Below, in pieces: positions 30,822-48,023 of a stretch of 48,113 nucleotides of DNA. The stretch covers positions 1 to 48,113 of the forward strand of contig JAFTHS010000007.1 of NCBI GenBank assembly GCA_017457295.1. Direction: 5' to 3'. Numbering within the stretch: the stretch's first letter is position 1; each line of letters starts with the position of its first letter. The translations under genes were made by a program, and so were the position numbers. Below the pieces are notes generated by a model. That model made no database searches. It was not told the origin of the DNA and worked only from the letters and a program-made list of their open reading frames with translations. Origin of the DNA: Paludibacteraceae bacterium (GTDB lineage Bacteria > Bacteroidota > Bacteroidia > Bacteroidales > Paludibacteraceae).

Positions 30822-30853
30822 TGCAAGATTGATCAGCAAAGATCAATCTTGCA
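30822..30853 (-). terminator. Perfect 13-bp hairpin at the end of the amidase C gene
   Basis: TGCAAGATTGATC / GATCAATCTTGCA with a 6-nt loop; the stem includes the stop codon of the amidase C gene (30843-30845). There is no T-run behind it on the minus strand, so it may stop or protect the mRNA only partially. Confidence 0.6.
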
Positions 30854-33326
30854 TTTGTCCCATGATGTTGTAGATTTTGCCGTCACGCAAGATGAATATT
30901 TGACCATCTTGCATGATCTTCTGCACATTATTTGTTTGGGTTGGCAGATGATCTACATCAGTTGTGCCATTTATTTTCCAGATAGCATATAGTGTGCCAT
31001 ACCATCCTGCAGGGATAGAGGTAATCGCTGTACCTGTGCCTTCTGGGTTGTCGAACCATCCCACAAAAACGTATCCATCTTTCACAGGAATTGGGAGTAC
31101 GAACGTTTCTGTCACTTTGGTAGGTAGGTCACCTGTCAAACCATAAGCCACTCGATACGCATCTCCCCATGCTTCAGGTTTTCCTGCTTGAGAGAAGTCG
31201 ATGGTTGAACCAACTACAGTACCATCTGCTTTCTTTGAAACATTGGTGCAGTTGAAGAATGCATAGAATTGTTGACGCCACTCCGAATCGGTGGTGATGG
31301 ATATGCCTTGAGCAGAAGCCACAGACAGGATATAATCGCCTAACCATTTCCATGGCGATTTAGAATCGGTCATGAAATCTAATCCCAAAGCTCCAATATT
31401 GGTCCAAGTGAATTCCAGCACCTCGGTAATAGGGCGCGAAGTACGCGTTTTGAATGTGCCGCTTTCGTTGCTGTATCCTGTATAGTATGCGTTGAAACCG
31501 TCCATAAATTCAATCCACAGTTCCTCATTGCTTGGTACTTTGCCGCCCAATACTTTACCTCCGTTCAATACCCAAGTAATGGTATAGATAGCTTCATCCG
31601 AATCGGGGTTGCTATTCTTCCAAATAGCATATATAGTACCCTTATATCCTGCTGGTATAGAGGTGATCTTAGCACCCTCGCCCTTTGGATCTTCATACCA
31701 TCCTACAAATTCATCACCATCTTTTACAGGTGTTGGCAAGGTGTAAGTAGCATCTACGGACGATGGCAGTTTTGCGCTTATGCCATGTGCCTCTCTGTAT
31801 GCATCTCCCCATGCCTCAGGTTTTCCTGCTTGAGAGAAATTGGCTGTAGCAACCTTTTGATTACCTTGTACAGTTCCATCATTGCAGTTAAAGAAAGCAT
31901 GTACATGCCAACGCCATGCACTTTCGCCATCCAATGCACCTGCTACAGATATAATATAATCACCCAACCACTTGTATTCAGATTTGCTATTGGTCATAAT
32001 ATCTTGCATCTTTGCGTTGGCAAAGGTAGCTACGTTCTCAATAGTTTGATCTGCACGGTTAAGACCATAATATGAGTTGTAGTATGGTTTGAATGTCTCC
32101 CATAAGTCGGTATTGCTTGGCACATCGCCGCCTAATACTTTGCCGCCATTCAATTTCCATACAATATCAGGGTTGATTGGATCAACATCAGGCTCTGTGC
32201 CTTGACCTTTCTCTAAGAAGATTTCTGGATAGGTGGTTTTGTCGGCTGTAACAGTCACAGTACCAGTATAGTCTTTGTATCCATTCGCATGTACAGAGAC
32301 TGTGTATTTGCCTGGTTCCAAATTCTCGTACATAAAGATACCATTGTAGTTATGGTCTGTGGTGTAGTAATCTTGATCCTTGAGCATTCGTTTTACGTAT
32401 GGATAGCAGTTACATTTAATCACCTCGCCTTTCTCATTGCGCAATACAACTTTCGCGCCATTAATAGGCTTATATATATCATTTGAACTTGGATAAGGTA
32501 CGTAATGCGTATGACTAAAGGTTTCTGTCTTTGAGCGAACATAACCCAATATATACCCCACTTTTTCTCCTGCTTTACCATAGTAATCCATAATACCTCG
32601 ATAATAGCGAATACCCTCTTCTCGGCACCAATCTGGATTCAATGCGCGATGACGAGCAGGGCTATAGGTGTGGAAATAACCTTCGGACAAGAAACCAGGA
32701 ATCTCATGCTTCAAGGCGCCCAAATAGCCATATGTCGAAGATGTGTTATAGAACGACAAGTCGCCTACAACGCGTGGGTTGCTAGGAGAGTAATAAGTGG
32801 TTGGTTCTGGTCCGCCACCACCATTCTTATTTTTTGGTGTAGTATAAAAAATATCATACAAACGCGCCATACATTTCTTAGCCATCTTATCACTATTAGT
32901 AACTTTTGGTTCTCCTGTATAGCCGCGATATAGAATTACAGGATAGTTTGCGAAACTTCCGTCACTTCCATCTGGTCCTGCATTCGAGTGAATAGATATA
33001 AAGTAATCTGCTCCATAGTTTTCGGCTTCAGAGCAAATAGTACTCAATGCTTTGTTGTATTCATTAGTCCCGCTACCACCTGATGCGCGGCGAGACATTT
33101 TTACGTCAAAACCAGCATCTTTGAGCTTGGTCTCCAGCATAAATGCTTTCCATAGGTTGGTGTTCGATTCAAAGAATCCTAATGTATCGCCAGCAGCATA
33201 GTTGATGGTGGCCATAGGGCGGCAATTTGGTCCCCAACTGCCGTGACCAGGGTTGATATATACTTTCGTTGCATTGGCTGACATCAATACAAGGCAAAAT
33301 GCAAATATAGAAGCAATTCGTTTCAT
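30843..33326 (-). CDS. Exported N-acetylmuramoyl-L-alanine amidase (amidase C) with two repeat modules
   Basis: 827 residues. Signal peptide 1-19. Amidase_3 domain about 20-250 with its zinc ligands His28 (INPGHGSWG), Glu53 (FFESNTNLW), His113 (SIHSNAG) and the catalytic Glu215 (FLSEGYFHTY). It cuts the bond between muramic acid and L-Ala, leaving denuded glycan. A carboxypeptidase-regulatory-like beta domain follows (256-372). Then come two copies (387-570 and 582-784) of a ~190-residue module that starts VWKLNGGKVLGG and ends IPAGYKGTIYAIWK. The tail GQIFILRDGKIYNIMGQMQD resembles short Por/T9SS sorting ends. 23 bp downstream of the frameshifted propeller C; third amidase of the locus. Confidence 0.88.
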   Translation of the reverse strand: MKRIASIFAFCLVLMSANATKVYINPGHGSWGPNCRPMATINYAAGDTLGFFESNTNLWKAFMLETKLKDAGFDVKMSRRASGGSGTNEYNKALSTICSEAENYGADYFISIHSNAGPDGSDGSFANYPVILYRGYTGEPKVTNSDKMAKKCMARLYDIFYTTPKNKNGGGGPEPTTYYSPSNPRVVGDLSFYNTSSTYGYLGALKHEIPGFLSEGYFHTYSPARHRALNPDWCREEGIRYYRGIMDYYGKAGEKVGYILGYVRSKTETFSHTHYVPYPSSNDIYKPINGAKVVLRNEKGEVIKCNCYPYVKRMLKDQDYYTTDHNYNGIFMYENLEPGKYTVSVHANGYKDYTGTVTVTADKTTYPEIFLEKGQGTEPDVDPINPDIVWKLNGGKVLGGDVPSNTDLWETFKPYYNSYYGLNRADQTIENVATFANAKMQDIMTNSKSEYKWLGDYIISVAGALDGESAWRWHVHAFFNCNDGTVQGNQKVATANFSQAGKPEAWGDAYREAHGISAKLPSSVDATYTLPTPVKDGDEFVGWYEDPKGEGAKITSIPAGYKGTIYAIWKNSNPDSDEAIYTITWVLNGGKVLGGKVPSNEELWIEFMDGFNAYYTGYSNESGTFKTRTSRPITEVLEFTWTNIGALGLDFMTDSKSPWKWLGDYILSVASAQGISITTDSEWRQQFYAFFNCTNVSKKADGTVVGSTIDFSQAGKPEAWGDAYRVAYGLTGDLPTKVTETFVLPIPVKDGYVFVGWFDNPEGTGTAITSIPAGWYGTLYAIWKINGTTDVDHLPTQTNNVQKIMQDGQIFILRDGKIYNIMGQMQD
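30975..32168 (-). repeat. Two copies of the LNGG...AIWK module in amidase C
   Basis: Copy 1 is encoded by 31617-32168 and copy 2 by 30975-31583. Shared landmarks in order: LNGGKVLGG, P SN .. LW, WLGDYI.SVA, W..Q/H.AFFNC, FSQAGKPEAWGDAYR, LP...TYTLP.PVKDG, F VGW.., TSIPAG..GT.YAIWK. A third copy lies in the GHL10 gene (45118-45737). Confidence 0.85.
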
Positions 33327-33349
33327 AATGGATAATCTTTATGGGTGAT

Positions 33350-34188
33350 TTATTTTACATTCATTACATATACTTTTCCTGCTGCGGTTGAGAAGGCTAT
33401 TTGTCCATTTGCTGCATAAGGATAGATGGCCATCATCTCCTTATTTATCAATATTTGCTTCTTTCCTTGCATATCATATGCCACGATAGCTGAAGCCGTT
33501 AAGTATTTGCCATTATCCTCATCGTGCATACCAATGATAATATTATCGTTATACCATTGTGGTGCACGGCAGTCAAGTGCGATATAGTGCACGTTCTTAC
33601 CATTCAAATCGCAAGTATAGCAACCCTTACCAGAAACGTAATACAGAATCTTAGTTCATCGGGTGAAATGCTTGCCCAATTGTAAGCATCATCTGCTCCG
33701 TTGGGCGTGAGGATAGTAGATTTTCCATTGAGTGTGAGTACAATATGTAGGTCACCATTGATAGCCACGTTGTTGGCTTGGTTGGCAGGTACAAGCTTGC
33801 TCAGATCGCGTTGCCCCTTAGCTATCATCGCTCTTTTTTGAGCTTTGATAGTGTATTTCACGATGTTGTTTCGTAGTGTCATGTCATCATTCATATATCT
33901 TTCGCGATACACGATTTCTTGTCCATCTGAACTAATCTTTACGGCCCAACCTGCACCCTCGGCATCGGTAATAGTGGTGATATTACCTGTAGCCAAGTCA
34001 TAGCGTTTTAATCCACTATTTACGTCATTAGTCAGTAGAAGGTAATCGCCTTTTGGACTGAAACCTGCTACTTTCATCTCCTCGTTGGTAGAGGTCGAAA
34101 GTTGTTCTGTTGAAACTATCTCTAATAGTTGAGCACTGGCGAACATACTGATGGTGCATATTGCACAAAGAAGAATTGTTTTTCTCAT
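33350..34188 (-). pseudogene. Frameshifted TolB/WD40-like propeller gene (propeller C)
   Basis: The intact relatives at 38155-38982 and 44085-44921 are ~276 residues. Here the frame from ATG 34188 (MRKTILLCAICTISMFASA signal) runs through FSPKGDYLLLTN and WASISPDE, then leaves frame near 33646-33656 and stops soon after. In the next frame it continues ILYYVSGKGCYTCDLNGKNV to the normal end VYVMNVK at 33350. One missing base explains it. The downstream half could still be translated alone from 33607. It is either a genuine pseudogene or a sequence error. It precedes amidase C just as the intact propellers precede amidases A and B. Confidence 0.85.
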
Positions 34189-34234
34189 GATATTCATTGT
34201 ATAAATGTGAATAGTTGATTTGCTTATTTTGCGA

Positions 34235-34266
34235 CAAAGTTACTACATTTTCGGTATATACGCAAA
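34235..34266 (-). promoter_or_regulatory. Promoter of the propeller C-amidase C cassette
   Basis: Minus strand: TTTG (34263-34266), 20 bp spacer, TAACTTTG (34235-34242), about 45 bp before the start codon. Confidence 0.8.
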
Positions 34267-34330
34267 TATTTACAAAAAAAATCGTGATATTTTTATTTCA
34301 TTTATCCTTCCTGAATGAGCAATTAGCAAT

Positions 34331-34361
34331 AAAAAAGGTGCCTAACTCGCGTCAGGCACCT
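34331..34361 (-). terminator. Terminator of amidase B
   Basis: Minus strand: AGGTGCCT, 10-nt loop, AGGCACCT, T-run (34331-34336 read in reverse). Almost identical to the terminator of amidase A at 39122-39152. Confidence 0.93.
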
Positions 34362-34384
34362 AATATTAATTTAATCCTATTGGA

Positions 34385-37300
34385 TTATTGTAGCAAGAAT
34401 GATCGACCATTTTGAATTACGATACCACGATAGTTCTTATCTACTTGGCGACCCAATACATCGTACATAGGAGCGTTGAGATCAAGAGTTGCCTCTGTCA
34501 CAACATCCTCTACTGCTGTATCAGGATCTGGAGCTTGAGCATCAGCCAAAGCTGTCTTAGCTGGGATAACGATAGTGTTATCAGCGGTTGGCATGGTGTA
34601 GCGAGTAATATGGCCTGCAGAAGAAGCGATCAAGTTACCTGCATAGTCGAAACTCAATTGGTGGATAGGACCAAGGTTGTGCTTGAATGACTCTACGTAC
34701 TTCACAGTAAGTTTACCTGCCTCATCCCATGCGCATTCGAAGACAATGAACTGGTTGTTATCATCAGGCAATACAAGATACTTTTGGTCGTTGCTGAGAG
34801 CAAGAGCACCGTCGTTGCTACCATTTACGTATGAAGCAAATGCATCGTAGTGAGTAGAGAACTCGCACTCCTCATTGAAGTTGTAGTAGCGAGCAGAAGT
34901 AGCATAGCTATTGTTACCTCCCGAATAACGGAGAGTAGAGCAGAAGAAACCGTAGTCAGTCAAGATAGGTTGGCCGTTCTTGTTAACAAGACCCGCGAGG
35001 TTGCTGCCCTTTCCATATATCTCAGAAGGAGCACCCTCCCAAACTTTGGCGATAGAGCCATCCGCTTGACCAATATTGTAAATGAGGATATTACCCAAAG
35101 ATGTACCGAAGTCTTCGTTGTAAACGATGAGCTTAGACTCAGTGCCCTCTTTGTAGATAGAAATACCTGCGGTAGAAGCACCTACATTCACGCCATTGTT
35201 GCTAATAACACCTGCAGCATCGCGTGTGCCAGCGAAGAATTGGCTTACCTTGGTTGGGTCGGCAGGATCAATTACGAAGATACCACTATTGCCGTCACTA
35301 TACTCAGCTGCGAATACTGTACCATCAGATGCTACAGCCAAACGTCTTGGAGCATCCCAAGTGCCACCATCTATACATGCGTATGGCGTACTGTTGAGTT
35401 GGGTAAACGCTTGGTCGTAAATAAACAAACCCTTAGTATCTGCGGCATTCATGACATAATAGCGTCCGAAGTAGTTAGACTCAGGATGTGTATCAACAAC
35501 ACCATAAGGCATAGTGAGTAATGTAGTATCCATATAATCACTGACAAGACCCATACCAGGAACAGGTTTGCCGCTTACGCGCACAGCCCAAGTGGTAGGT
35601 GTACCAGAGTAGCCAGGCAGCTCGTTGTACTTAACCACTACGGTATTCTCACCCTTCACTGCAGGAGTTGGCATAGCCACTTCGCCTACCTCTTTACCAT
35701 CTTGGTAGAATACGATAGCAGAAGAAACAGCGTTTTCGGTTGCTTGGAAAGTGAAGGTGTAAGTAGAGTCGGTAGTGTTGTTAGTGAGTTGTAGGTCATA
35801 TGCACCTACGCGTGCTACGATGGGCTGTTGTACGCCGTCGGTGGTGTAAGAATATACCTTGCTATCTGCATAGAGATAGAGGTTGAGTACAGCACCATTA
35901 ACATATGCACCTGCGCTTGCGTGAACAGCTGCTACTGGAGCTGCGAGAGTAGTACCTTGGGTTAATACTAGAACGGCTTTGTCTAGTCCCTCAGTGATAT
36001 CAAACAACTTGATACCTGCCACATTGCCTTCAGCATCTTCGTAAGGAGTTACCATCAAGCTCTTGCCTGCATACTTGAAGTAAGAAGCACCTTGATACTT
36101 CACGCCGATGAGCGTAGAGTCGAATTCGCCAAGAACGACAGGATCCTCGTTAGGACCAGCGGTTTTGAATTCAACTGGCGCCATCTTCTCAGCATCCATG
36201 ATGAAGTCTTTCTTTTCGCCAAGAGGAGAGAGGGTCAGGCGGAAGTCTGCGCCATCTACAGCCTCATCGAAGACAGCCGTTTCATCAGTGGTGGCATCGC
36301 TTAAGCCAGAACCCAATTGGTAGCCAAAGTATGCTTCGCTTGCGAGCATGCTATTAGCCACATTAAAGATGGTAAAGCGAGCACCATTGCCATAACGGTG
36401 AACACCTGTGGTGAGGATGGTACAGTTGTCGGACATACCGCTGATAGCCATAGTATATCCTTGGTCTGATTTGAAGGAGTTGCTGGAGAATTGCGATGTG
36501 AACCATTCTACAGGATCAGCATAGAAGTCATCCCAAATATAGAAGCGAGTAGTACCACGTTTGTATCCACTTTCTACAGCATCATCTTGATAGTTGCAGC
36601 GAGTATAGTTAACACCTACGAGTTTGTTATCGCAAGTGATAGCAATATCGGAAAGTGCAAGGTGGTCACCTGGGTTGGTAGTATCTACTGGCACGATACC
36701 CACGGTAGAGATAGTATCTAGTTTGCCAGTAGTGTTGTTGAGTACATAGATATGTGCAGTACCATTCTCTTCGTGAGTGAGGTAGAAGACAGAGTCAGCA
36801 TGTTGGATAGTACGTTTAATCGTACCCTTAATAGAAGCTGTAAAGTCTTTTGGATCATTTTGCTTCATATTGAATTGCTCTGGTACAGCCGCATATGCAG
36901 GTTGATCAGGATTTGGGTAATCTTGGAAGTTAGCACTTGGGTCTATATAACCTTCTTCCTCCAAGAAGAGGAATGGATAACTTGTTGCATTTGCTACCAC
37001 CTCTATGGTTTGATATTTGCGGTGAAGAGGTTTATAACCTTCTGCAGTAGCCATTAACTTGTAGGTACCTGGCTCAAGATCAGGGAAGTAGAACAAACCA
37101 TTATAGTTGTTATCTACCGTGTAGGTAGCCACCACTTCGCCATTCTCTTTGCTCAACGTAACTACAGCACCATTGAGTGGAGCATATTGGTCATTGGTAT
37201 TAGCTGCATACTTGTAGAGTTCGTGGGTGAATGGATTGTGCTCATCTTTTACAGTACCCAAGATATAACCCTTGGTGTCTGGCTCTGCGCCGTAGAAATC

Positions 37301-38158
37301 CACGATACCGCGGTAGTAACGGATACCCTCTTGCTTGCAGTAGTCGGGGTTCAATGCACGGTGACGAGCTGGTTGATAGGTGTGGAAATATCCCTCTACG
37401 AGGAAACCAGGAACACCATGGTGCAATACGCCGAGGTAACCTGTATAAGTCTTACCAGAAGATGGAAGAGTAGCATCATAGCTGCTTCCGTAGAAATCAA
37501 TATCTGCCAAGATATGCTTAGATGTCTCAGGGTCACGGGTATCGTAGTTGGTAGGCTCAAGACCATCCATAGAACGGCACTCAAATGCGTGATACCAAGA
37601 GCGTTTGCAACGGTCAATAGCACCTGGAACTACGTGTGTACCATCTGTATTACCACGATAGAAGTATGACAAATAGTTCACGGTGTTACCATCGGTAGCA
37701 GCGTTAGAGTGAACAGAGATGAAGTAATCCATGTTGTTTGCCTCCGCCTCATCAGCGATGTCAAGCAATGGACGGTTGTATTTCTCGTAATCTGGCAAAC
37801 TCTTGTAGTGCTCGTAAGTATAATCTGGATACTCACCATCCACTTTCTCGTATGGCCAAGGACCTGCTTGTGTGTGAGACATCATGACAAAAGCACCGGC
37901 TGCCTCAAGGCGGTCACGGAGCTCAAGACACTTCCAGAGGTTGGTGTTCGACTCGTAGAAACCGCATGTATCAGGCATACCTGTAGACTCTAAATTAGGA
38001 TAAGGAATAGTAGCATTAGGACGGTCATTAGGCCCCCAACTACCGTGACCTGGGTTGATATAAATACGTTTGCCAGTCAAGTCAGTTGCAAACATGGCGA
38101 TGCTAACTACGCATGCAGCCATAATAAGTAATGTCTTTTTCATAGTCGTATGCATCAT
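34385..38158 (-). CDS. Exported N-acetylmuramoyl-L-alanine amidase (amidase B), multidomain
   Basis: 1257 residues from the ATG at 38158, which overlaps the propeller B stop as ATGA; Met6 (38143, MKKTLLIMAACVVSIAMFA) is an alternative and gives a more usual signal peptide. The Amidase_3 domain follows, with INPGHGSWGPNDRP (zinc His), FYESNTNLW (Glu), ISVHSNAA (His) and FLVEGYFHTY (catalytic Glu). Next are a carboxypeptidase-regulatory-like domain (YILGTVKDEHN to YPFLFLEEEG), a long NHL/SMP30-like beta-propeller region (RRLAVASDGTVFAAEY, SFDYAGNLIASSAG) and a T9SS-like tail NAPMYDVLGRQVDKNYRGIV. Predicted to be exported and to strip stem peptides from peptidoglycan. Second cassette of the locus. 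Confidence 0.88.
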   Translation of the reverse strand: MMHTTMKKTLLIMAACVVSIAMFATDLTGKRIYINPGHGSWGPNDRPNATIPYPNLESTGMPDTCGFYESNTNLWKCLELRDRLEAAGAFVMMSHTQAGPWPYEKVDGEYPDYTYEHYKSLPDYEKYNRPLLDIADEAEANNMDYFISVHSNAATDGNTVNYLSYFYRGNTDGTHVVPGAIDRCKRSWYHAFECRSMDGLEPTNYDTRDPETSKHILADIDFYGSSYDATLPSSGKTYTGYLGVLHHGVPGFLVEGYFHTYQPARHRALNPDYCKQEGIRYYRGIVDFYGAEPDTKGYILGTVKDEHNPFTHELYKYAANTNDQYAPLNGAVVTLSKENGEVVATYTVDNNYNGLFYFPDLEPGTYKLMATAEGYKPLHRKYQTIEVVANATSYPFLFLEEEGYIDPSANFQDYPNPDQPAYAAVPEQFNMKQNDPKDFTASIKGTIKRTIQHADSVFYLTHEENGTAHIYVLNNTTGKLDTISTVGIVPVDTTNPGDHLALSDIAITCDNKLVGVNYTRCNYQDDAVESGYKRGTTRFYIWDDFYADPVEWFTSQFSSNSFKSDQGYTMAISGMSDNCTILTTGVHRYGNGARFTIFNVANSMLASEAYFGYQLGSGLSDATTDETAVFDEAVDGADFRLTLSPLGEKKDFIMDAEKMAPVEFKTAGPNEDPVVLGEFDSTLIGVKYQGASYFKYAGKSLMVTPYEDAEGNVAGIKLFDITEGLDKAVLVLTQGTTLAAPVAAVHASAGAYVNGAVLNLYLYADSKVYSYTTDGVQQPIVARVGAYDLQLTNNTTDSTYTFTFQATENAVSSAIVFYQDGKEVGEVAMPTPAVKGENTVVVKYNELPGYSGTPTTWAVRVSGKPVPGMGLVSDYMDTTLLTMPYGVVDTHPESNYFGRYYVMNAADTKGLFIYDQAFTQLNSTPYACIDGGTWDAPRRLAVASDGTVFAAEYSDGNSGIFVIDPADPTKVSQFFAGTRDAAGVISNNGVNVGASTAGISIYKEGTESKLIVYNEDFGTSLGNILIYNIGQADGSIAKVWEGAPSEIYGKGSNLAGLVNKNGQPILTDYGFFCSTLRYSGGNNSYATSARYYNFNEECEFSTHYDAFASYVNGSNDGALALSNDQKYLVLPDDNNQFIVFECAWDEAGKLTVKYVESFKHNLGPIHQLSFDYAGNLIASSAGHITRYTMPTADNTIVIPAKTALADAQAPDPDTAVEDVVTEATLDLNAPMYDVLGRQVDKNYRGIVIQNGRSFLLQ

Positions 38159-38982
38159 TTAACGTTCATTACATAGATTTCACCTTCGCTTGTAGAGTAA
38201 GCGATTTTTCCATCGGCCGCTTGTGGGAACACCGCGATTTGCTCGCCATTGGTCAATACTTGCTTCTTGCCATCCAAGCTATAAGCTACGATAACAGACT
38301 CCAATACCACTTCGCCATTATCCTTGGTATCACAACCAACGAGGATATTGTCGTTGTACCATACAGGAGCGAGGCAGTTGTGACCAATAAATTGGATATT
38401 GCTGCCATCAATGTCGCATACGAAGCAACCTACTGCACTGATGTAGTAAGATACTTTCTTGCCGTTAGGAGAAAGAGATGCCCAGTGGTAGCTGTATTGC
38501 TGTCCGTTAGGTGAGAATACGCGAGTCTCACCATTCTCTGTGATCATTAGTTGTCGATCTTTTACGGAGAAAGAAGGACGCTCTGCCTCTACAACCATAG
38601 CTTCTAACGTGAGTTGGCTTTTAGCCATCATTTTGCGTGGTGCACCATCAAAACTATGGCGGACCACATTGCTGCGGCGAATTTGCTTTGCATCGGTAAC
38701 TACTTCGCGGTAAACGATTTGCTTACCATCGCGTGCTACTTTTACATTGTAGCCTGCGCCATCAGCAGTAGTAATAGGAGTGATTTTTTTACTTGCTAAA
38801 TCAAAGCGTTGTAAACCTTGATTGCTAGTGTTAGTTAACAAGAGGTAATCGCCATTAGGGCTAAATGCTGCTACTTTCGCATTGGCATTGTTTGCCACAC
38901 GTTCAGTAGAAGCCACCTCCAACAATTGTGCGCTCGCCATCATTGGGATAGCCAACGCCAAAAAAAGATAGATTTTTTTCAT
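38155..38982 (-). CDS. Exported TolB/WD40-like beta-propeller protein (propeller B)
   Basis: 275 residues. Signal peptide MKKIYLFLALAIPMMASA. The body repeats blade-like strands typical of TolB/PD40 propellers: FSPNGDYLLLTN, DGKQIVYREV, RVFSPNGQQYSYHWASLSPNGKKVSYY, DGKKQVLTNGEQIAVFP, ADGKIAYSTSEGEIYVMNVK. The ending YVMNVK is shared with propellers A and C. TolB-type propellers bind other periplasmic proteins; here the amidase encoded directly downstream (4-bp overlap) is the obvious candidate partner, as chaperone, inhibitor or targeting factor (inference). It has its own promoter. Confidence 0.82.
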   Translation of the reverse strand: MKKIYLFLALAIPMMASAQLLEVASTERVANNANAKVAAFSPNGDYLLLTNTSNQGLQRFDLASKKITPITTADGAGYNVKVARDGKQIVYREVVTDAKQIRRSNVVRHSFDGAPRKMMAKSQLTLEAMVVEAERPSFSVKDRQLMITENGETRVFSPNGQQYSYHWASLSPNGKKVSYYISAVGCFVCDIDGSNIQFIGHNCLAPVWYNDNILVGCDTKDNGEVVLESVIVAYSLDGKKQVLTNGEQIAVFPQAADGKIAYSTSEGEIYVMNVK

Positions 38983-39175: not shown

Positions 39176-42100
39176 TTATTGGAGCAAGAATTTGTAGCCG
39201 TTTTGAATTACGATACCACGATAGTTCTTATCTACTTGGCGACCAAGTACATCGTACATAGGAGCATTGATATCCAAAACCTGAATATTCATCACGCCAT
39301 CAACAATGCGTACGGTTACCACGCAGGTTGCTTTGAATCCCCCATCAGTAGTAGTTACGGTAATATTAGCAGTACCCTCAGCTACTGCCGTTACTATGCC
39401 ATCAACTACGGTAGCCACAGTTTCGTTATCAGAAGCCCAAGTGACAGACTTATCCGTAGCATCTTCAGGAGCAACGGTTGCTTTCAATGTAGCAGTTTGA
39501 GGAACATCCAATGTCAACTCAGTAATATCCAATGTCACACCTGTTACTTTAATAATAGGTTCGAGTACTGTTATAACACAAGTTGCACTATGATTACCAT
39601 CAACAGTAGTAACGGTGATAGTTGCTATACCAGGAGCAACAGCTGTTACTACACCATCTGTCACTGTTGCTATTGAATCTTTATCTGACGTCCAAACAAC
39701 AGATTTATCGGTTGCATTTTCTGGAAGTACGGTAGCAACTAATGTGAGGGTTTCTGATACTTCAAGTTCTGCTTTGGTTTGATCAAGCACTACACCAGTA
39801 ACAGGTTGCGTGATAGTAACGATACACGTTGTTGTTACGTTATCAGCAGTTGCTGTGATAGTAGCAGTGCCTACAGCCATTGCGGTTACTACGCCATCAA
39901 CTACTGTTGCAATGTTATTATCTGAAGATTCCCATGATACAGTTTTCAATGTGGCGTTTTCTGGTGCTATAGTGGCAGTTAAAGTGTCTTTTTCTCCAGG
40001 AACCATGTTCAATGTGGTATGGTTAAGAGTAACAGATTGTACCGCTTCTTTTACGATGACTTTAAGATGATCTTGATATCCTCCATCTTCAGTTGTAACG
40101 GTAATTGTTGCTTCACCTGTTTTTAGACCAATAATTAAAGCAGTATTTTGAATATCAACAATAGTTGAATCAGATGAGGTCCAAATCGTATTTTTATTTG
40201 CGGCATTAGCTGGTCTAATCGAATATGCAATACTATAGTTACTCTCCTTACCAATATACATAACTCCATTATTGCCCGCTAAAATCTTAATGCCCTTTAC
40301 TGAGATTGGCTTAACAGTTAATGTCAATGTATCAGAGAAATTACCTTCTACTGAAGTAACGGCTATCTTGGTCGTTCCAACGGCTTTTGCTGTTGCTATT
40401 CCGTCAATATCAATAGTAGCGATTGATTGTTCGGTAGACTCCCACTTAACCATTGTATTAGTTGCATTGAGTGGAGTAAATGTTGGTAAAGTAGATAAGT
40501 CTATGGTCTCACCAACTTCGATAGTTGCTTCTTTGTTTGATAATTGCATTCCTTCAACCGCAATACCAGCAGTACGAATTAAGGTTAAAGCTTTTTTGGC
40601 TGGTATGAGTGTGGTATTTTCTTTACTTGGCAAACTTACGAGGTATATACCTGCATCACCAGTACATACGATATTGCCAGCATAATCCCAGTTCATTTGA
40701 CGAATCTTTGCAATACCGTGCTTGATAGTATAGCGCAATGCCAATACTGGTTTGTCACCTTCCCAAGTAATATCGAATACGAGGAAGTTTTGTGCACCAT
40801 CGTTGAATACCAATACGGATTCATCAGCAGATACTACATAACCACCTGCATTAGAACCTGTAATGATTTCTTTGTAGAGATCTGAAGCAGATGACATTTG
40901 TTCATTACCTGCATTGTCATAGAACTTCAATGAAGTAGCACCAGTATTGTTTTGACCATCCTCGCGCACTTGACTTACGAAGAAACCGTGGCTGGTACCC
41001 CATGGATTACCCTCGGTGTTGGCTTGACCTGTCAAGGTATAAACAGCACTTGGAGCGGTCTCCCATTTGTGAAGGATTGTGCCATCTGCTTGACCAATGT
41101 TATAAACGGCCATACCATTCTTTGGCAAGGTGCCTGCAGGATCTTCGTTATAAACGAACAACTTAACTTCCTTACCATTGTCATATACATAGCAGCCCGG
41201 AGTGGAAGAACCTGTATAAGCACCATTATTATTGAATACGCCATTGCCATCGCGTGTACCAGCGAAGAATTGGGTAAATGGTTGGGTCATATCCGCTGTG
41301 TTAGCCATGAAGATACCAGAGTTACCATCTGCCCAGTCTGCAATATAGAGATAACCTTCACGATCCATACTCATACGAGTTGGGTTACCAAACTTAGCAA
41401 CACCACCTTTGTAAACTTCGGTATTTTGTTTTGCCAAATTGTGGTCGAACTCCCAAATACCGCTCTTTGGAGCGTTTGCGGAGGAGGAAGAACCTGCACG
41501 GTGCATGACATAGATATGGCCGAATTGATCTGATTCTGGGTTGGTGTTTACAGCATTGAATAGGCGAGATGTGCTCGACTCAATCAATGAATTGTCGGAA
41601 GCAATTATGCCAAAGTTAGAAATAGAATTGCCGGTAAGTTGAACTGCCCATGTGAGTGTTGCACCTACAGAATCTGGCAATACTGCTGCCTTAAGATCAA
41701 TAGAATTATGACCTTGTTTTATACCCTTTACTGGTATTCTTCCTACTTCTACATCCTGTGCATTATAAAATACAACTTCCGCAGATATAGCATCAGTATT
41801 GGCATCGAATGTAAATGTATAAATTTCATTTTTCAATGAAACATTTAAATTATATGCCATAATAGCAGGAATAGCTGGTTGTGTTACTCCTATTGTCGAG
41901 AATTTACTCAAGGAATTATCTTTCAATAAGTAGAGTGTCAAGTTTGCATCTTTTACTTGAGCAGCTGCCATTGTATAAGCAGGATTTGAAATATCCAATG
42001 TGGTGTTGGTAGTCTTTATTAGAATAGGTTTATCAACACCATCTGTGATATCGTAAACGGCAATACCAGTATTAAGACCGCCCAATTCTTCTAAAGGAGC

Positions 42101-44074
42101 AACCATCAATGATTTATTTGCATATTTGAAGTAATTTGCTACATGGGTGTGGAATGGCATTGTGCCTTTGATGGTAGGAGCCGATTTTGTAGTATTAACA
42201 ATTTGCCACTCAAATGCCTCTTTATTTGGAGAAGAGAAAATGAAACTACTACTATCGCGTGGAGATACTACCATTTGAATTTCATGTCCATATTCTGCTA
42301 ATGTAACACCTTCTGGTTGATTTCGTAAAGAACCTTCAATGCGATCATCAGAAATTGTATAAATAACAAAACGAGTACCATGAGTGCTACTACCAGTTGT
42401 GTAAGCGGTAGTTGCAATAATTCCTTCTGTTAATGTTCCCGAATAAGCAAGTGTTGTTCCAACCATTGCATTGTTGTAGTTGCCTGCAGTTTCGTTATTG
42501 GCATGTGATTGCCACAACGTACCCGTCCATTTACCATTTGCTTTTGTCCATTTATATAGATTCCATTTGTTAGAGGGATTAAAAGTTACAGCTTCCATAT
42601 TACATCCAACTAAAACACCTTCGGCTGTAAAGGATATGTCACTCAACTTATAGCCATTAGTTGATACTACAGAACAGAAATCTGTTGGCAAGGTCGTTTC
42701 AATTTTGCATGAATCTGGATTAACAACAGCTAAGGTAGGTTCTTTTTTGCTATCAATAGCTAATACATACATTAAACCATTACGATACAATGCGCGACGA
42801 ATTGTTTTTCCTGTAAACAACTTATCCAATTGTTTATTAACAAACACTTGTTCCATTTCGAATGATTTAGGAACATCCAAATAAATAGGTTGATTAGGAT
42901 TAGGATAGTTGGTATAATGGATTGTTGGAGGTATATATGCAGTATCGTTCAAATGCAAGAACTTATAGGTAGTCTCATTAGCTTTCACTGAGAATGGAGC
43001 TTTGTGTACCTCATGCATTGGGTGATAGCCTTCGCAGCTTGCTTCCAAAGTATAATCGTCACCAGGCTCAAGACCTTCGAAAATGAAAAGGCCGTTATAG
43101 TTATTATCTACAGTATATCGATCAACTTCTACGCCACCTTTTTTCAATATAACCTCAGCACCATTACATGGCACCCATTGATCGTTGGTTTTTGGAGCAT
43201 ATTGGAATAACGAGTGATTCATCTTGAATAATGAGTCCTTCACTGTACCCATAATATAACCAACATTCTCCTTGTCGGCACCATAGTAATCTACGATACC
43301 GCGGTAGTATGCCAGACCCTCCATATGGCAATAGTCTTGATTCAAAGCACGGTGACGAGCTGGTTGGTAGGTGTGGAAATAACCCTCTACAAGGAAACCA
43401 GATGCACTGTTTTTGAGTACACCCAAGCTATTGCTGCCTTCTATTTTTTTTGAGCTACCAGGTGTGGCGTAATGGGATGCGGGGTCAATTCCGCTTGACA
43501 TGATTTCAACGCGATGAGGCCAACTTGCTACAGATTTTTCGTAACTACCTTCATTGGTATCACTAGATGCTGTGGCTCCACTTCCGCGGAAAATATAATA
43601 AAGATAATTGGTTGTACTCGCTTCTGTAGCTGCGTTCGAGTGAATAGAGATGAAATAGTCAATATTATTTGCATCTACTTCTGTACAAATCTCTGAGAGG
43701 TTGCGGTTGTATTTTTGGTAATCAGGTAAATTCTTGTATTCCTCCCAAGTATAATCAGGATAGTCTCCATCTACCATAGTGTATGGCCAAGGACCATTTT
43801 GAGTACGAGAGTACAATACGGTAGCCCCTGCAGCCTCTAGTTTCTCGCCGAGGTACATACTTTTCCAGAGGTTGGTGTTAGACTCGTAGAAACCGAGTGT
43901 ATCTGGCATACCAGTAGTAGGTAATTCTGGATAAGGGATAGTAGCCATAGGGCGGTCGTTTGGTCCCCAGCTACCGTGACCAGGGTTTATGTAAATGCGT
44001 TTGCCAGTCAAATCAGTAGCAGACATAGAGAGAGTTAGCAATGCTGCTGCAAGAATCATAAATATCTTTTTCAT
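39176..44074 (-). CDS. Exported N-acetylmuramoyl-L-alanine amidase (amidase A) with five Ig-like (Big_2) domains
   Basis: 1632 residues, the largest protein in the window. Signal peptide 1-19. Amidase_3 at about 26-265 with His33 (INPGHGSWG), Glu64 (FYESNTNLW), His145 (SIHSNAA) and catalytic Glu230 (LVEGYFHTY). Carboxypeptidase-regulatory-like domain about 272-375. A long beta-propeller-like region (about 400-1170) homologous to amidase B (LSDISFTAEGVLVGCN, TRMSMDREGYLYIADWADGN, QMNWDYAGNIVCTG). Five tandem Big_2 domains at about 1175-1590, absent from amidases B and C. The T9SS-like tail NAPMYDVLGRQVDKNYRGIV is shared with amidase B. The Big_2 stalk suggests display at a distance from the surface. 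It starts 10 bp after propeller A. Confidence 0.9.
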   Translation of the reverse strand: MKKIFMILAAALLTLSMSATDLTGKRIYINPGHGSWGPNDRPMATIPYPELPTTGMPDTLGFYESNTNLWKSMYLGEKLEAAGATVLYSRTQNGPWPYTMVDGDYPDYTWEEYKNLPDYQKYNRNLSEICTEVDANNIDYFISIHSNAATEASTTNYLYYIFRGSGATASSDTNEGSYEKSVASWPHRVEIMSSGIDPASHYATPGSSKKIEGSNSLGVLKNSASGFLVEGYFHTYQPARHRALNQDYCHMEGLAYYRGIVDYYGADKENVGYIMGTVKDSLFKMNHSLFQYAPKTNDQWVPCNGAEVILKKGGVEVDRYTVDNNYNGLFIFEGLEPGDDYTLEASCEGYHPMHEVHKAPFSVKANETTYKFLHLNDTAYIPPTIHYTNYPNPNQPIYLDVPKSFEMEQVFVNKQLDKLFTGKTIRRALYRNGLMYVLAIDSKKEPTLAVVNPDSCKIETTLPTDFCSVVSTNGYKLSDISFTAEGVLVGCNMEAVTFNPSNKWNLYKWTKANGKWTGTLWQSHANNETAGNYNNAMVGTTLAYSGTLTEGIIATTAYTTGSSTHGTRFVIYTISDDRIEGSLRNQPEGVTLAEYGHEIQMVVSPRDSSSFIFSSPNKEAFEWQIVNTTKSAPTIKGTMPFHTHVANYFKYANKSLMVAPLEELGGLNTGIAVYDITDGVDKPILIKTTNTTLDISNPAYTMAAAQVKDANLTLYLLKDNSLSKFSTIGVTQPAIPAIMAYNLNVSLKNEIYTFTFDANTDAISAEVVFYNAQDVEVGRIPVKGIKQGHNSIDLKAAVLPDSVGATLTWAVQLTGNSISNFGIIASDNSLIESSTSRLFNAVNTNPESDQFGHIYVMHRAGSSSSANAPKSGIWEFDHNLAKQNTEVYKGGVAKFGNPTRMSMDREGYLYIADWADGNSGIFMANTADMTQPFTQFFAGTRDGNGVFNNNGAYTGSSTPGCYVYDNGKEVKLFVYNEDPAGTLPKNGMAVYNIGQADGTILHKWETAPSAVYTLTGQANTEGNPWGTSHGFFVSQVREDGQNNTGATSLKFYDNAGNEQMSSASDLYKEIITGSNAGGYVVSADESVLVFNDGAQNFLVFDITWEGDKPVLALRYTIKHGIAKIRQMNWDYAGNIVCTGDAGIYLVSLPSKENTTLIPAKKALTLIRTAGIAVEGMQLSNKEATIEVGETIDLSTLPTFTPLNATNTMVKWESTEQSIATIDIDGIATAKAVGTTKIAVTSVEGNFSDTLTLTVKPISVKGIKILAGNNGVMYIGKESNYSIAYSIRPANAANKNTIWTSSDSTIVDIQNTALIIGLKTGEATITVTTEDGGYQDHLKVIVKEAVQSVTLNHTTLNMVPGEKDTLTATIAPENATLKTVSWESSDNNIATVVDGVVTAMAVGTATITATADNVTTTCIVTITQPVTGVVLDQTKAELEVSETLTLVATVLPENATDKSVVWTSDKDSIATVTDGVVTAVAPGIATITVTTVDGNHSATCVITVLEPIIKVTGVTLDITELTLDVPQTATLKATVAPEDATDKSVTWASDNETVATVVDGIVTAVAEGTANITVTTTDGGFKATCVVTVRIVDGVMNIQVLDINAPMYDVLGRQVDKNYRGIVIQNGYKFLLQ
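39306..40562 (-). repeat. Five tandem Big_2 domain repeats within amidase A
   Basis: Each repeat is ~80 codons with VTGV.L, L.....TL.ATV.PENATDKSV.W.S, IATV.DGVVTAVA.GTA.ITVTT. The three C-terminal repeats are the most alike, also at DNA level, which produces long shadow frames on the plus strand. The first two are more diverged. Confidence 0.88.
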
Positions 44075-44084
44075 AATAGTCTGC

Positions 44085-44921
44085 TTATTTTACATTCAAC
44101 ATATAAGTTTCGCCTTGCAATGTGGCAAATACGATAGTATTTTTCGCCACATAAGGATACATTGCAATCATGTCACTATTGGTCAATGTTTGCATTTTGC
44201 CATCCAGTGTATAAGCAACGATAGCAGAAGCGGTGGTGAAGTGGCCATCATCCTCGTCAGCCATAGCTATGAGTGTATTGTTGTTATACCACTTAGCAGC
44301 ACGACAAGCGCGAGCAATAAAGAGTGGATTAGAACCGTCGATGTTAGCAACGAAGCAACCTTTGCCAGCTACATAGTAGCAGATTTTTCTGCCGTCAGGA
44401 GATACAGAAGGCCAGATGTAGCTCTCGTTCATACCATTAGGAGCCAAAGTGGTGGTGAGACCATTGCGTTTCAAGACGATAAGGCGGTCCTTGATACTAA
44501 CCGTAGTAAGGTTGTCAGAGGTTGCCATGTGTTTCAGGTCGCGTTGATTGCGCGCTACTACATGTTGGCGTTGGTTGTACATGTTGAGGCGTACAATCTT
44601 GTTTTGGCGCATTTGATTGCGGTCGAGAGTTGTCTCGCGATAAACAATTTCTTGACCATCGCTGCTCACTTGCACATTGAAGCCAGCACCAGCAGCTTCG
44701 GTGATGGTGGTGAGTGCTTGACTCTCAAGGTCATAGCGTTGCAGACCTTGGTTAGAACCAGTGGTGAGAAGAATATAATCACCTGCAGGACTAATACCTG
44801 CCACCTTCATGTCTGCTTGAGCAGCGATAGGTAGTTGTTGCATAGATATTACTTCGAGTACCTGTGCGCTGGCAGCCAGACTGAGAAGGCAAGCTGCCAC
44901 AAAAAGCATTGTTTTTTTCAT
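44085..44921 (-). CDS. Exported TolB/WD40-like beta-propeller protein (propeller A)
   Basis: 278 residues. Signal peptide MKKTMLFVAACLLSLAASA. Same family as propellers B and C: VAGISPAGDYILLTTGSNQGLQRYDLES, DGQEIVYRETT, PSVSPDGRKICYYVAGKGCFVANIDGSNPLF, WYNNNTLIAM, and the shared end YMLNVK. It lies 43 bp downstream of the GHL10 gene and 10 bp upstream of amidase A, on the same strand. It is probably exported to the periplasm and works with that amidase (inference). No enzyme motif is seen. Confidence 0.82.
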   Translation of the reverse strand: MKKTMLFVAACLLSLAASAQVLEVISMQQLPIAAQADMKVAGISPAGDYILLTTGSNQGLQRYDLESQALTTITEAAGAGFNVQVSSDGQEIVYRETTLDRNQMRQNKIVRLNMYNQRQHVVARNQRDLKHMATSDNLTTVSIKDRLIVLKRNGLTTTLAPNGMNESYIWPSVSPDGRKICYYVAGKGCFVANIDGSNPLFIARACRAAKWYNNNTLIAMADEDDGHFTTASAIVAYTLDGKMQTLTNSDMIAMYPYVAKNTIVFATLQGETYMLNVK

Positions 44922-44964
44922 GCGTTTTGATTTAAAAGTTAATAATAATGGTTAATTGTCTGTT

Positions 44965-47289
44965 TTATCGAATGATTTTAATTCGTTGTCCGTTTTGTTC
45001 TATGATGAATAGGCCGTGTCCAACAGTATTTATATCTGTTCCTACCATACGTCCCATGATATCGTATATGCATACTTTATCATCATGCGTTATGTTCTCA
45101 ATACTTGTGTTCATGCCTTTCCAATGTGCATACAATGTGCCTTTCCAACCGGCTGGAATCACATATAATTGTTCTCCTTTGAATTGGCCATTGTCCCACC
45201 ATCCAAGGAATGTATAGCCTTCAGGGTGGGTTAGATTTGTGGGCAAGGTATAAGGCGCATCTACAAATGATGGCAATGTAATTGCGCCATGATCTGCTTG
45301 ATATGTCTCTCCCCATTGTGCAGGTAATCCCGCATTGGTAAAGTCGCCGCATTCTGCCCAACCAATAACGGAGCCATCTGCATAGCGAACTTCGTTAGTT
45401 GCATTAAAGAAGGCATAGAGATTAAATCGCCAATCACGGTCTTTATTAGCGTCGCTAATGGTTTCTCCACCAATAGATAGGATATAATCTCTCAACCAAC
45501 TCCAATCAGCATGTTGTTCCATCATTTCGCTGGCTAATGCTTTTCCTACTGAATTAGGCCAAGTATATTCCAATACGGATGTGATAGGCAAATCTCCCAT
45601 GGATTCGTATCCGCTATAAAGAGCAGAATAAAAATCGTCATAATCTGTTTTGAAGGTTTCCCATAACTCCGCATTGGTTGGAACTTCTATTGTTGGTAAT
45701 ACTCCGCCATTAAGTTCCCAGATAATATCGGGTTCAATGTTTTCTCCATAAATCGCTACTCCATGCTCTACACCATAGCGATCATAACTGCATACGGCTA
45801 CTGTTGTGTTGTTCCAATCCTCCATCTCTGATAACTCCCACGACTTACCATATACTACGCCCTGCAAGTATCGTGCATCTTTTTGGGCTGTGGCAAAATC
45901 CAAGTCCTTTGGATATACATACACAGTAAAACGCTCTGCAGTAGCATGTTGCCACGTGATTTTTTTGCCTGAGATTGTTAAGTTGCTTGGAGCTGCCAAC
46001 GTATTCTCTGATTTCCAGTCCATTGCAGGAGGTAAGGCTTTCTCTTGGAAATGCGATGCCGCCAATTGGTCATACATCTTGCAATATGCAGTAGTATTAT
46101 AGAATACGGAACCTGTATAACCTGATGATAAATTAGCGCGGTTGGCATCTATCTGTTTTTGAATTTCAGCAACACCATCATCGTATCCCTTATACTCATC
46201 ATAAGCATGATATGCGGCTTGCGAAGAGAAGAAATGTACTTTCTTACCATTTGGCAACTGATTGGAGAAATGCTCACACACATCTTTTGCCCACCATTCG
46301 CACAATACATCGTAGTCTTGTCCAGCATAGTCTGTGGACCAATACAATTGTGGATTGATATAATCCACCCATCCCTGTTTTACCCATTCTACTGTGTTAC
46401 ATGCTTGTACATCATAGTCGTCAAGACCTACGATACCGTTGGGCAAACTAATGCCGTATGCTTGAGCAGCTTTCTTTTGTGTCGTCCAAATGCCGAAAGG
46501 CCCCATTCCGAAACGCACCCAAGGTTTTACTGCTTGCAGCTGGTCATAGAGCATTTTCATGCAACTATCCACATTTGCACGGCGCCAATCATCGTCGGTA
46601 TAGCCATCTTGATTAACATCTACTACATTCGATGGTTTGTACTTTGACTTAGAGTTACTATCCTCTGTGGTGGTACCTCCGTAGGGATAAAAATAGTCAT
46701 CCATCAAAATACCGTCCACATCGTATTTGTTCACAATTTCCATCAACACCTTTATTACGTACGCGCGCGCTTCAGGAAAACCTGGGTCAATGATTTGACC
46801 TTTGAACGAACCATTATCGTATTTAATAATCCAATCGCTTGCATTTTGCCACACCTTATCGGAAGTTGCTATTGATTCAGAACTCGTCACGCGAAATGGA
46901 TTTACCCATATGTGCAACTCTAATCCGCGTTTGTGTGCTTCCTCAATTGCGAAAGCCAATGGATCATAACCTGGATCTTTGCCACGAGTACCAGTCAGGG
47001 CTGCCGACCATGGCTCATATGAGGACTGATACATGGCATCGCACAATGAACGCACTTGCATACAGCAGGCATTCATATTACCAGCTACCATCTTGTCAAA
47101 AATGTCAGTTAGTTCTTTTTGCTGTTGCTTGCGTGTAGCGTCGTTGGTAACTTTGGTTTTTGGCCAATCAATGTTTTGTACTGTAGCCAACCATGTGGCA
47201 CGGAACTCGTGTTTGTGCGCATTATTGGCTAATATCATGTGGCTTGCGAATATGGCCACAGCCAAAAGAGTAAATCTGAAGTGTTTCAT
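44965..47289 (-). CDS. Exported GHL10 family glycoside hydrolase (DigH/YngK-like) with LNGG...HWK module
   Basis: 774 residues from the ATG at 47289 (ATGA overlap with the upstream gene; MKHFRFTLLAVAIFASHMILA signal peptide). GHL10 (PF02638-like, formerly DUF187) domain about 26-400 with FRATWLATVQNIDWP (29-43), HIWVNPFR (126-133), IIDPGFPEAR (167-175) and the acidic active-site stretch DVDGILMDDYFYP (190-202). E. coli DigH of this family cleaves peptidoglycan glycans freed of stem peptides, which fits the three amidases next door. A fibronectin-like segment (about 430-525) follows, then one copy of the ~190-residue module (about 530-724) also found twice in amidase C, and a T9SS-like tail CIYDIMGRMVGTDINTVGHG. 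Confidence 0.88.
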   Translation of the reverse strand: MKHFRFTLLAVAIFASHMILANNAHKHEFRATWLATVQNIDWPKTKVTNDATRKQQQKELTDIFDKMVAGNMNACCMQVRSLCDAMYQSSYEPWSAALTGTRGKDPGYDPLAFAIEEAHKRGLELHIWVNPFRVTSSESIATSDKVWQNASDWIIKYDNGSFKGQIIDPGFPEARAYVIKVLMEIVNKYDVDGILMDDYFYPYGGTTTEDSNSKSKYKPSNVVDVNQDGYTDDDWRRANVDSCMKMLYDQLQAVKPWVRFGMGPFGIWTTQKKAAQAYGISLPNGIVGLDDYDVQACNTVEWVKQGWVDYINPQLYWSTDYAGQDYDVLCEWWAKDVCEHFSNQLPNGKKVHFFSSQAAYHAYDEYKGYDDGVAEIQKQIDANRANLSSGYTGSVFYNTTAYCKMYDQLAASHFQEKALPPAMDWKSENTLAAPSNLTISGKKITWQHATAERFTVYVYPKDLDFATAQKDARYLQGVVYGKSWELSEMEDWNNTTVAVCSYDRYGVEHGVAIYGENIEPDIIWELNGGVLPTIEVPTNAELWETFKTDYDDFYSALYSGYESMGDLPITSVLEYTWPNSVGKALASEMMEQHADWSWLRDYILSIGGETISDANKDRDWRFNLYAFFNATNEVRYADGSVIGWAECGDFTNAGLPAQWGETYQADHGAITLPSFVDAPYTLPTNLTHPEGYTFLGWWDNGQFKGEQLYVIPAGWKGTLYAHWKGMNTSIENITHDDKVCIYDIMGRMVGTDINTVGHGLFIIEQNGQRIKIIR
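45118..45737 (-). repeat. Third copy of the LNGG...HWK module (in the GHL10 enzyme)
   Basis: Same order of landmarks as in amidase C: IIWELNGG, PTNAELWETFK, ITSVLEYTW, WLRDYILSIGG, WRFNLYAFFNATNE, ADGSVIGW, FTNAGLPAQWGETYQADHG, LP, YTLPTNLTHPEGYTFLGWWDN, IPAGWKGTLYAHWK. Confidence 0.85.
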
Positions 47290-48023
47290 AGTAGTAATTT
47301 TTCTATATTGCTCCATATTCCAAATCCCAATGCGCAGCATACAAGTACAATGTATATTACTCCACTGGCGACTGATGGAAAACGAAGAGGAAGCAGGTTA
47401 AAAAAAATTGTAAGTATCATCATGCCAATTGCCATCCACATTTGCCAATGCGACAAGTCAAATATATCAGCAAACGGCATCTCTATTGCGCCCAAGAAAT
47501 ATGCAATAGCAAAATATAGTGCCACGGTTGCTACGCCAATCAGCGATGCCATCCATACCCGTAGCGTCATTACTCCGCGTAGTGTTAATAATCCCCATAT
47601 TACTCCCACCAAAATGATTACTTCGGGCAGTATAGCACAAGTACCCGCGATGATTAAACTGCTCAAGAATGCCTGTTCTACGGGTACCTCTTGATAATTA
47701 ACCGTTTGCAGTATGCAATAGGCAACCATTATGGCCAGCACTACTGCTTGTCCTTGCCAACATCCGTGCAAAATGGTTATTGATGATATCACTAACCAAT
47801 ACGTAGCCCCTACAAACGCTGATGGCAGGTTGGTCACTCTTATTTTGCAGAATAGGTTCATCATTATCAGAGCATTGATACCAACTAGCACCAGTGTTAC
47901 AACCTCCGACACTACTCCATTACCATCTAGTAGATTAGGTATCCACATAGCTGTGCCAAGAACGATGAATAATATCGTTCTTAGCATGCTATTTTGGGCA
48001 ATGTTTTTTAAGAAATATCTCAA
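47286..48023 (-). CDS. Multi-pass membrane protein of unknown function
   Basis: 245 residues. The frame starts at a TTG (48023, MRYFLKNIAQNS); Met13 at 47987 is the alternative ATG. About seven or eight hydrophobic helices (for example LRTILFIVLGTAMWIPNL, VVTLVLVGINALIMMNLF, IILVGVIWGLLTLRGVM, VIYIVLVCCALGFGIW). It resembles the small polytopic proteins of Bacteroidota envelope loci (DUF6427-like look, not certain). Its stop overlaps the GHL10 start by 4 bp, so it is translationally coupled with the hydrolase and may open the whole operon. No promoter is visible before the window ends. Confidence 0.7.
   Translation of the reverse strand: MRYFLKNIAQNSMLRTILFIVLGTAMWIPNLLDGNGVVSEVVTLVLVGINALIMMNLFCKIRVTNLPSAFVGATYWLVISSITILHGCWQGQAVVLAIMVAYCILQTVNYQEVPVEQAFLSSLIIAGTCAILPEVIILVGVIWGLLTLRGVMTLRVWMASLIGVATVALYFAIAYFLGAIEMPFADIFDLSHWQMWMAIGMMILTIFFNLLPLRFPSVASGVIYIVLVCCALGFGIWSNIEKLLL

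Follow-up and report, generated by a model that had tools for sequence, protein, structure and literature searches.

A widespread propeller–amidase gene pair in Bacteroidota and a possible latency or escort role for its propeller in type IX export

In Escherichia coli, amidases, lytic transglycosylases and DigH form a described route through peptidoglycan, in which DigH acts on the denuded glycans that the amidases leave behind (PMC12288456). Those amidases act on the cell's own wall in daughter-cell separation, and EnvC and NlpD, which activate them, belong to the LytM proteins and are not propellers (PMC12440217). A periplasmic propeller-like partner of a wall amidase is known from Tse1 and Tsi1, where the partial propeller Tsi1 inhibits Tse1 (PMC3391265). 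For the type IX secretion system (T9SS), effectors have been proposed to fold in the periplasm, where gingipains are kept inactive by an N-terminal prodomain, and exported proteins reach the cell surface or the medium (PMC10202324). Here we describe a locus of propeller and amidase genes in a 48,113-nucleotide stretch of DNA (contig JAFTHS010000007.1 of assembly GCA_017457295.1, the whole of which is called the window below) from a Paludibacteraceae bacterium of the phylum Bacteroidota.

The locus shares features with several of these systems. As with Tse1 and Tsi1, a wall amidase is paired with a periplasmic propeller-like protein; however, Tse1 is an NlpC/P60-type cysteine enzyme delivered by the type VI secretion system, whereas here the enzyme belongs to the Amidase_3 family and often bears a T9SS tail, and the propeller is complete. 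Where the two genes are fused, the order of parts is that of gingipain RgpB and other T9SS zymogens (signal peptide, N-terminal partner, catalytic domain, further domains, C-terminal tail), although gingipains are peptidases with the prodomain in cis, whereas the present enzyme is an amidase and its propeller is usually a separate protein. The component families are all known; the combination of a propeller with a T9SS-tailed wall amidase was not found described, and in the open-access PubMed Central literature no account was found of the pair as a conserved module or of its link to T9SS tails.

In the reading that we favour, and to which we give a probability of roughly 45%, the propeller is a periplasmic latency or escort partner of an amidase that is exported by the T9SS and acts outside the cell. 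The locus would then comprise, three times over, an export module of two genes that is widespread in the phylum. One gene of each copy would encode a TolB-like propeller with a signal peptide and without a T9SS tail; as the amidase's dedicated periplasmic partner, it would bind the newly folded enzyme and shield the cell's own wall from it, pass it on to the T9SS, or both, acting in trans or, in some loci, in cis as an N-terminal part comparable to the prodomain of gingipains. Outside the cell, the amidase would strip stem peptides from wall material, and a GHL10 enzyme, where present, would cut the glycan thus exposed; in those few loci that have SusC/SusD, the fragments would be imported. 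The genes of the three pairs in the window are as follows.

44085 to 44921, minus strand: propeller 1, an exported TolB-like six-bladed propeller of 278 amino acids, partner of amidase 1.
39176 to 44074, minus strand: amidase 1, 1632 amino acids, with Amidase_3, a middle region, five Big_2 stretches and a short C-terminal tail.
38155 to 38982, minus strand: propeller 2, 275 amino acids, 46–47% identical to propeller 1, partner of amidase 2.
34385 to 38158, minus strand: amidase 2, 1257 amino acids, with Amidase_3 as the catalytic domain (38080-37091).
33350 to 34197, minus strand: propeller 3, frameshifted near 33,650, in pieces at 34197–33604 and about 33655–33350.
30843 to 33326, minus strand: amidase 3, 827 amino acids, with Amidase_3, a carboxypeptidase-regulatory-like domain, Flg_new repeats and a short tail.

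Two of the pairs in the window are intact, and the third has a broken propeller. A first-pass annotation had described three tandem pairs; pairs 1 and 2 and amidase 3 are indeed intact, but propeller 3 begins as an open reading frame (ORF) of 197 amino acids, and its frame breaks before the second piece. Either a pseudogene or a mistake in the assembly could account for this break; intact relatives of propeller 3 adjoin the matching amidase in two other loci (L055, L130). Propeller 1 and amidase 1 are separated by 10 bp, and the stop of propeller 2 overlaps the start of amidase 2 by 4 bp as ATGA.

Loci from other genomes were picked by the propeller only, so that the amidase was not built into the choice. 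After duplicates were dropped, the pooled loci gave 179 distinct propeller ORFs of at least 60 bits, where distinct means different within residues 31–230 and near-identical copies from kin remain. A gene scoring more than 35 bits on our own amidase profile and starting within 250 bp downstream was counted as the partner; in genome searches that used alignments, no more than six candidates per genome were scored, and copies may be missed. An adjacent downstream amidase was found for 154 propellers and 15 are fused to an amidase, so that the co-occurrence that the first-pass annotation had proposed looking for is borne out in 169 of 179 cases. The gap is 50 bp or less in 142 of the 154 adjacent pairs, and 42 of them have the 4-bp overlap. 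Among the other ten propellers, three are no more than 3 kb away from an amidase of the same strand (window propeller 3, with its frameshift; L160, with a GHL10 gene between; L300, with a tandem propeller), three are cut off by the ends of their stretches (L134, L186, L192), and four are without a downstream amidase. These four are L291 and the extra propellers of L277, L302 and L113, whose loci have another pair; that of L113 sits downstream of an amidase.

A search of 61 genomes with propeller 1 matched 12, these being 11 of the 37 genomes of the genus (the window's own included) and 1 of 24 others of the order. In all 28 regions fetched from this search, from which the two weakest matches (E about 8e-4; G028:C15, G011:C29) were left out, the propeller lies just upstream of, or is fused to, an amidase. 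A scan of named genomes, limited to the best 80 matches, yielded 77 loci; the families represented include Paludibacteraceae, Muribaculaceae and Prevotellaceae, and Hoylesella buccalis ATCC 35310 is among the genomes. In 75 of these loci the propeller is followed by the amidase, whereas a GHL10 gene lies between the two in L160 and the contig ends in L134. A profile built from 30 propellers matched 25 of 393 genomes of the order at 1e-6 and 59 of 395 genomes of the phylum at 1e-10, 55 of the 59 lying outside the window's class. Matches were weak only (1e-16 to 1e-6) in 13 of the 25 order genomes; of four such genomes viewed as regions, G274 and G416 each show a run of propeller, amidase and GHL10, and G063 and G163 are without an amidase. 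The pairing is widespread in the phylum, beyond chance. That it might be peculiar to the window genome was rejected, since it recurs in the genus, the order, the named genomes and the phylum. A good part of the named propeller-bearing genomes among the best 80 are from animal guts. The closest propeller match listed, 97% identical, is in a Paludibacteraceae metagenome-assembled genome from yak colon, and the next, at 91%, is from dairy cattle caecum; the window bacterium is probably a gut bacterium.

The converse test was carried out with loci chosen by the amidase. Of 393 order genomes, 16 gave a match to the amidase profile at 1e-15, and all 12 order genomes with a strong propeller (E < 1e-50) are among these 16; the remaining four are G274 and G416, each with a weaker, adjacent propeller, G296, with the amidase at a contig start, and G358, a weak match in a 299-residue frame. 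The phylum sample gave matches in 63 of its 395 genomes when short frames are counted too. Here a propeller lies within 3 kb of 54 of the 60 long amidase frames (>450 residues) versus 0 of the 29 short frames (330–394 residues), these 89 being the amidase matches that stay when four rows of the window's own genome and the second piece of one ORF (G510) are set aside; on the propeller side, own-genome rows and some second pieces were set aside as well. The six long misses comprise L343 and L344, with a diverged propeller next door, L346, with a T9SS tail and no propeller, and L350–L352, with neither. For ten of the 29 short amidases (regions L353–L362), a broader propeller model also found no propeller alongside. 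No T9SS tail was found by Pfam on the one short amidase scanned, and from their length the rest are probably without one as well. Members of this short sister group (L353–L362) are about 350 residues long, and several have lipoprotein-like starts by eye; the group serves well as a control.

The gene order is reversed, with the amidase first, in L345, L347, L348 and L349, all outside the window's class, L347 and L348 being close kin; L343 is also amidase-first, but its contig ends inside the amidase. In L349, a GHL10 gene lies just upstream of the reversed pair. Seven propeller-bearing phylum genomes had no long amidase match. Two of them, represented by L310 and L312, have an amidase next door (40–41 bits), the others being G512, G552, G569, G581 and G609.

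Partner amidases were scanned for the T9SS tail domain Por_Secre_tail (PF18962), which was above cut-off in all 10 scanned outside the order (from 40 fetched phylum regions), in 4 of 6 from Bacteroidales, and where L177 has a dockerin-like tail and L068 neither. A further scan of ten relatives gave 6 with the domain; for its nine long amidases, picked because an earlier search showed no propeller or one downstream, a propeller was present in 5 of 6 with a T9SS tail and 0 of 3 without. The propeller tends to accompany T9SS-tailed amidases. PF18962 was itself found in none of 47 propellers scanned, all from Bacteroidales. SprA is encoded in the window's genome (PF14349, E 2.4e-173), in which PF18962 gave 11 matches, seven above cut-off. 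No Pfam family recognises the short tails of the window amidases, so that their proposed export by the T9SS is read from their relatives. The amidase of L177 (L177:10898-14692) ends in a dockerin_1 domain with no T9SS tail, and those of L181, L192, L195 and L200 have tails that look alike by eye.

If T9SS cargo folds in the periplasm, a folded wall amidase would there face the cell's own wall. Such a self-harm problem, which a wall-cutting T9SS cargo would pose, has been described for peptidases (PMC10202324); for wall lysins as T9SS cargo, nothing on it was found in the open-access literature. A separate partner at 54 of 60 long and 0 of 29 short amidases is a testable answer to it. A latency or escort role is favoured because the propeller goes with long, mostly tailed amidases, is absent from short ones, is itself without a tail, can be fused N-terminally and has a precedent in Tsi1. 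Of the settings suggested in the first-pass annotation (division, recycling, predation and competition), the relatives' T9SS tails and the minority of loci with SusC/SusD point outwards and not to the cell's own division. Should the outward reading be true, many members of the phylum carry dedicated means to dismantle other bacteria's walls. More speculative, and in our judgement rather unlikely, is the wider proposal that these propellers are an undescribed, widespread class of latency or escort factors for T9SS cargo, which would silence the amidase on its way through the periplasm, in trans or fused in cis. They would be at the core of a surface system, made up of amidase, GHL10 and a phosphodiester glycosidase that could release teichoic-acid-type links, by which members of the phylum digest other bacteria's walls and, in some lineages, import them.

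The same observations bear on the alternative of a propeller that serves in targeting or substrate binding, as a subunit which would travel with the amidase and hold it on wall material or the cell surface. Propellers commonly bind ligands, the fused forms put propeller and amidase on one chain, and many of the amidases have additional Ig and repeat domains. However, with a T9SS tail in 0 of 47 separate propellers, such a subunit would have to be carried out by the amidase or else remain in the cell, and short amidases might need targeting too, yet a propeller stands beside 0 of 29. We consider a targeting role unlikely.

Pfam places all three window amidases in Amidase_3 (PF01520; 44.4, 30.8 and 33.4 bits for amidases 1, 2 and 3, cut-off 27), with the active-site motifs (His, Glu, His and Glu) in place, as the earlier annotation had claimed; we take these residues to be the zinc ligands and catalytic residues. 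The active-site columns are conserved across 34 amidase domains, and peptidoglycan amidase activity is predicted for the window proteins. Three relatives count as amidases through our own profile only, as L180 (24.1 bits) and L185 (21.5 bits) fall under the PF01520 cut-off and L177 is without a match at 0.01. The nearest folds of the amidase part include the structures AmiB–EnvC, LytH–ActH and CwlD–GerS, from which it follows that partner-bound Amidase_3 enzymes exist. These structures favour an activator, in which the propeller would switch on the amidase for remodelling of the own wall, as EnvC does for AmiB and ActH for LytH. Many partner amidases, however, bear T9SS tails, the amidase clade is patchy and not core (present in 16 of 393 genomes of the order and, with short frames counted, in 63 of 395 of the phylum), and the amidase sits with NAGPA and, in few loci, with SusC/SusD; an activator of this kind seems to us quite improbable.

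Two further amidase arrangements were noted. A second long type (like L020:7028-9946, with Golvesin_C) lies a few kb from the pair in L121, L123, L124, L275 and L276. In L351:5174-7291 and L352:4818-6881, Amidase_3 and a beta-lactamase-type domain (PF13354) are in one chain, without a T9SS tail or propeller.

Across 148 pairs, propeller and amidase tree distances are correlated with r = 0.92, the largest value in 1000 permutations being 0.16, which shows joint inheritance, not contact. Joint descent likewise predicts a high mirror-tree correlation if the adjacency has no function and is an old operon kept through common descent; close relatives share flanks, and the 179 ORFs are not independent. 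The 15 fusions, the four reversed-order loci and the pairing across several families and classes argue the other way, and we regard this explanation as extremely unlikely. Stable inheritance is also at odds with an effector–immunity pair, in which the amidase would be a weapon and the propeller would protect the producer and its kin, as weapon genes usually turn over fast, whereas these pairs are inherited together (r = 0.92). The window does have tandem copies and repeat-rich tails, and neutralisation of Tse1 by the periplasmic partial propeller Tsi1 is a parallel (PMC3391265), but the T9SS delivers to the surface or medium and not to a neighbour's periplasm (PMC10202324). The chance that the pair is of this type is low.

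Several observations weigh against the latency or escort reading. A targeting or activating partner would give the same gene pattern, and a high mirror-tree value can come from joint descent alone; nearest neighbours agree in 64 of 148 cases, and comparisons between multi-pair loci show agreeing partners in 134 of 182. When propeller and amidase were modelled by AlphaFold as a joint chain (77 rows, 12 paired), both domains folded well, but the pTM of 0.56 gives no confident propeller–amidase contact. The idea of a cognate partner, put forward in the first-pass annotation with a complex prediction as one of its checks, is thus upheld by the 169 of 179 adjacent or fused propellers and the 54 of 60 long amidases, but not by a predicted interaction. 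PF18962 was unmatched in the window amidases (0 of 3), the genome's own fused copy (0 of 1), L177 and L068, none of its 11 matches in the genome is on the window's contig, and the two GHL10 proteins scanned (L059, L151) are without it. The tailed amidase L346 has no propeller within about 5 kb, the propeller L291 is an orphan, and amidases L131, L133 and L143 have no propeller of their own, though a neighbour's is nearby. Some fused propellers are short, at about 130 to 190 residues. Within 9 kb of the 179 propellers, a SusC-like gene was seen for only 10 and a SusD-like gene for 4, in counts made with single-sequence queries on short stretches, so that import would be at best a minority use.

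GHL10 enzymes are optional companions of the pair. On the minus strand from 48,023 to 30,843, the three pairs of the window are preceded by two further genes.

47286 to 48023, minus strand: polytopic membrane protein of no assigned family; an ORF without a Pfam or NCBIfam match above cut-off.
44965 to 47289, minus strand: exported GHL10 protein with its start at 47289, in an ORF that is open from 47340; PF02638 at 210.2 bits against a cut-off of 27.9.

With the GHL10 start at 47289, the stop of the membrane-protein gene overlaps it as ATGA, in agreement with the coupling claimed earlier; in several relatives, an ORF akin to the membrane protein sits upstream of the GHL10 or propeller gene. A GHL10 gene lies within 5 kb of 42 of the 179 propellers (genus-level set, 14 of 34; order, 3 of 21; named genomes, 23 of 81; phylum, 2 of 43). 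GHL10 as a core part was rejected on these counts, which come to no more than 5 of 64 for the order and phylum sets together. The two-step unit of amidase and GHL10 proposed in the first-pass annotation survives as a recurring option, at 42 of 179 propellers and in L068, where a 2248-residue ORF (L068:327-7073, minus strand) adjoining a propeller gene has Amidase_3 and GHL10 in one polypeptide and is, by its predicted domains, a natural fusion of both proposed steps. DigH belongs to the GHL10 family. The GHL10 domain of Cwp19 from Clostridioides difficile has lytic transglycosylase activity on peptidoglycan, although Cwp19 is a Gram-positive surface protein with cell-wall-binding repeats, and the parts of the source drawn on here mention no propeller partner (PMC6016235). 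Given this activity and that of DigH on denuded glycan, amidase followed by GHL10 would make sense as a sequence of cuts in loci that have both.

Two of the four GHL10 genes above cut-off in the window's own genome are in propeller–amidase loci (contigs C77 and C116), and two are elsewhere (C36, C145). A propeller search of this genome gave matches on C77 and C116 only, and Amidase_3 places on C127, C133 and C10 are without a nearby propeller. On C116 (L018:1499-19941), genes for SusC, SusD, a PKD protein, GHL10, an OB/propeller protein and a NAGPA-type phosphodiester glycosidase lie in one run, with a fused propeller–amidase downstream, a 1002-residue ORF that joins a shorter propeller to an amidase; the run looks like a wall-directed utilisation locus. 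NAGPA frees phosphodiester-linked sugars (PMC12419801) and might release teichoic-acid links in these loci. Within 9 kb of the 15 fused copies, GHL10 was found for 12 and NAGPA for 8. Several propeller–amidase loci resemble SusC/SusD utilisation loci in adjoining SusC, SusD and glycan enzymes, whereas the window locus is without SusC/SusD, its ORFs giving no match to single-sequence SusC or SusD queries. Neither a peptidoglycan polysaccharide utilisation locus with this set of genes nor the NAGPA combination was found in the open-access PubMed Central literature.

A structure model of the mature propeller chain (259 residues) has a predicted TolB-like propeller fold. Most alignments to TolB, the propeller of the Tol–Pal system, start near TolB residue 187 versus residue 2–3 of the model, the window propeller being without TolB's N-terminal domain and having an amidase as its partner gene. 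That the propeller is TolB itself was rejected, as propeller 1 scored 21.8 bits on the NCBIfam TolB equivalog model, for which the cut-off is 343.15. In the fused forms L075, L076 and L077, only about 130 to 160 propeller residues precede the amidase, too few for a closed six-bladed ring and comparable with the partial propeller Tsi1.

Extra diverged propellers stand beside the pair in L277:5417-6403, L284:11874-12848, L294:9297-10271 and L300:7323-8309. Those of L277 and L300 and, as judged by eye, that of L284 have lipobox-like starts, so that a lipid-anchored second propeller may exist. Elsewhere in the window, two neighbouring minus-strand ORFs at 3518-4546 and 4896-5990 have Fic-like motifs of the HPFxDGNGR type, as judged by eye.

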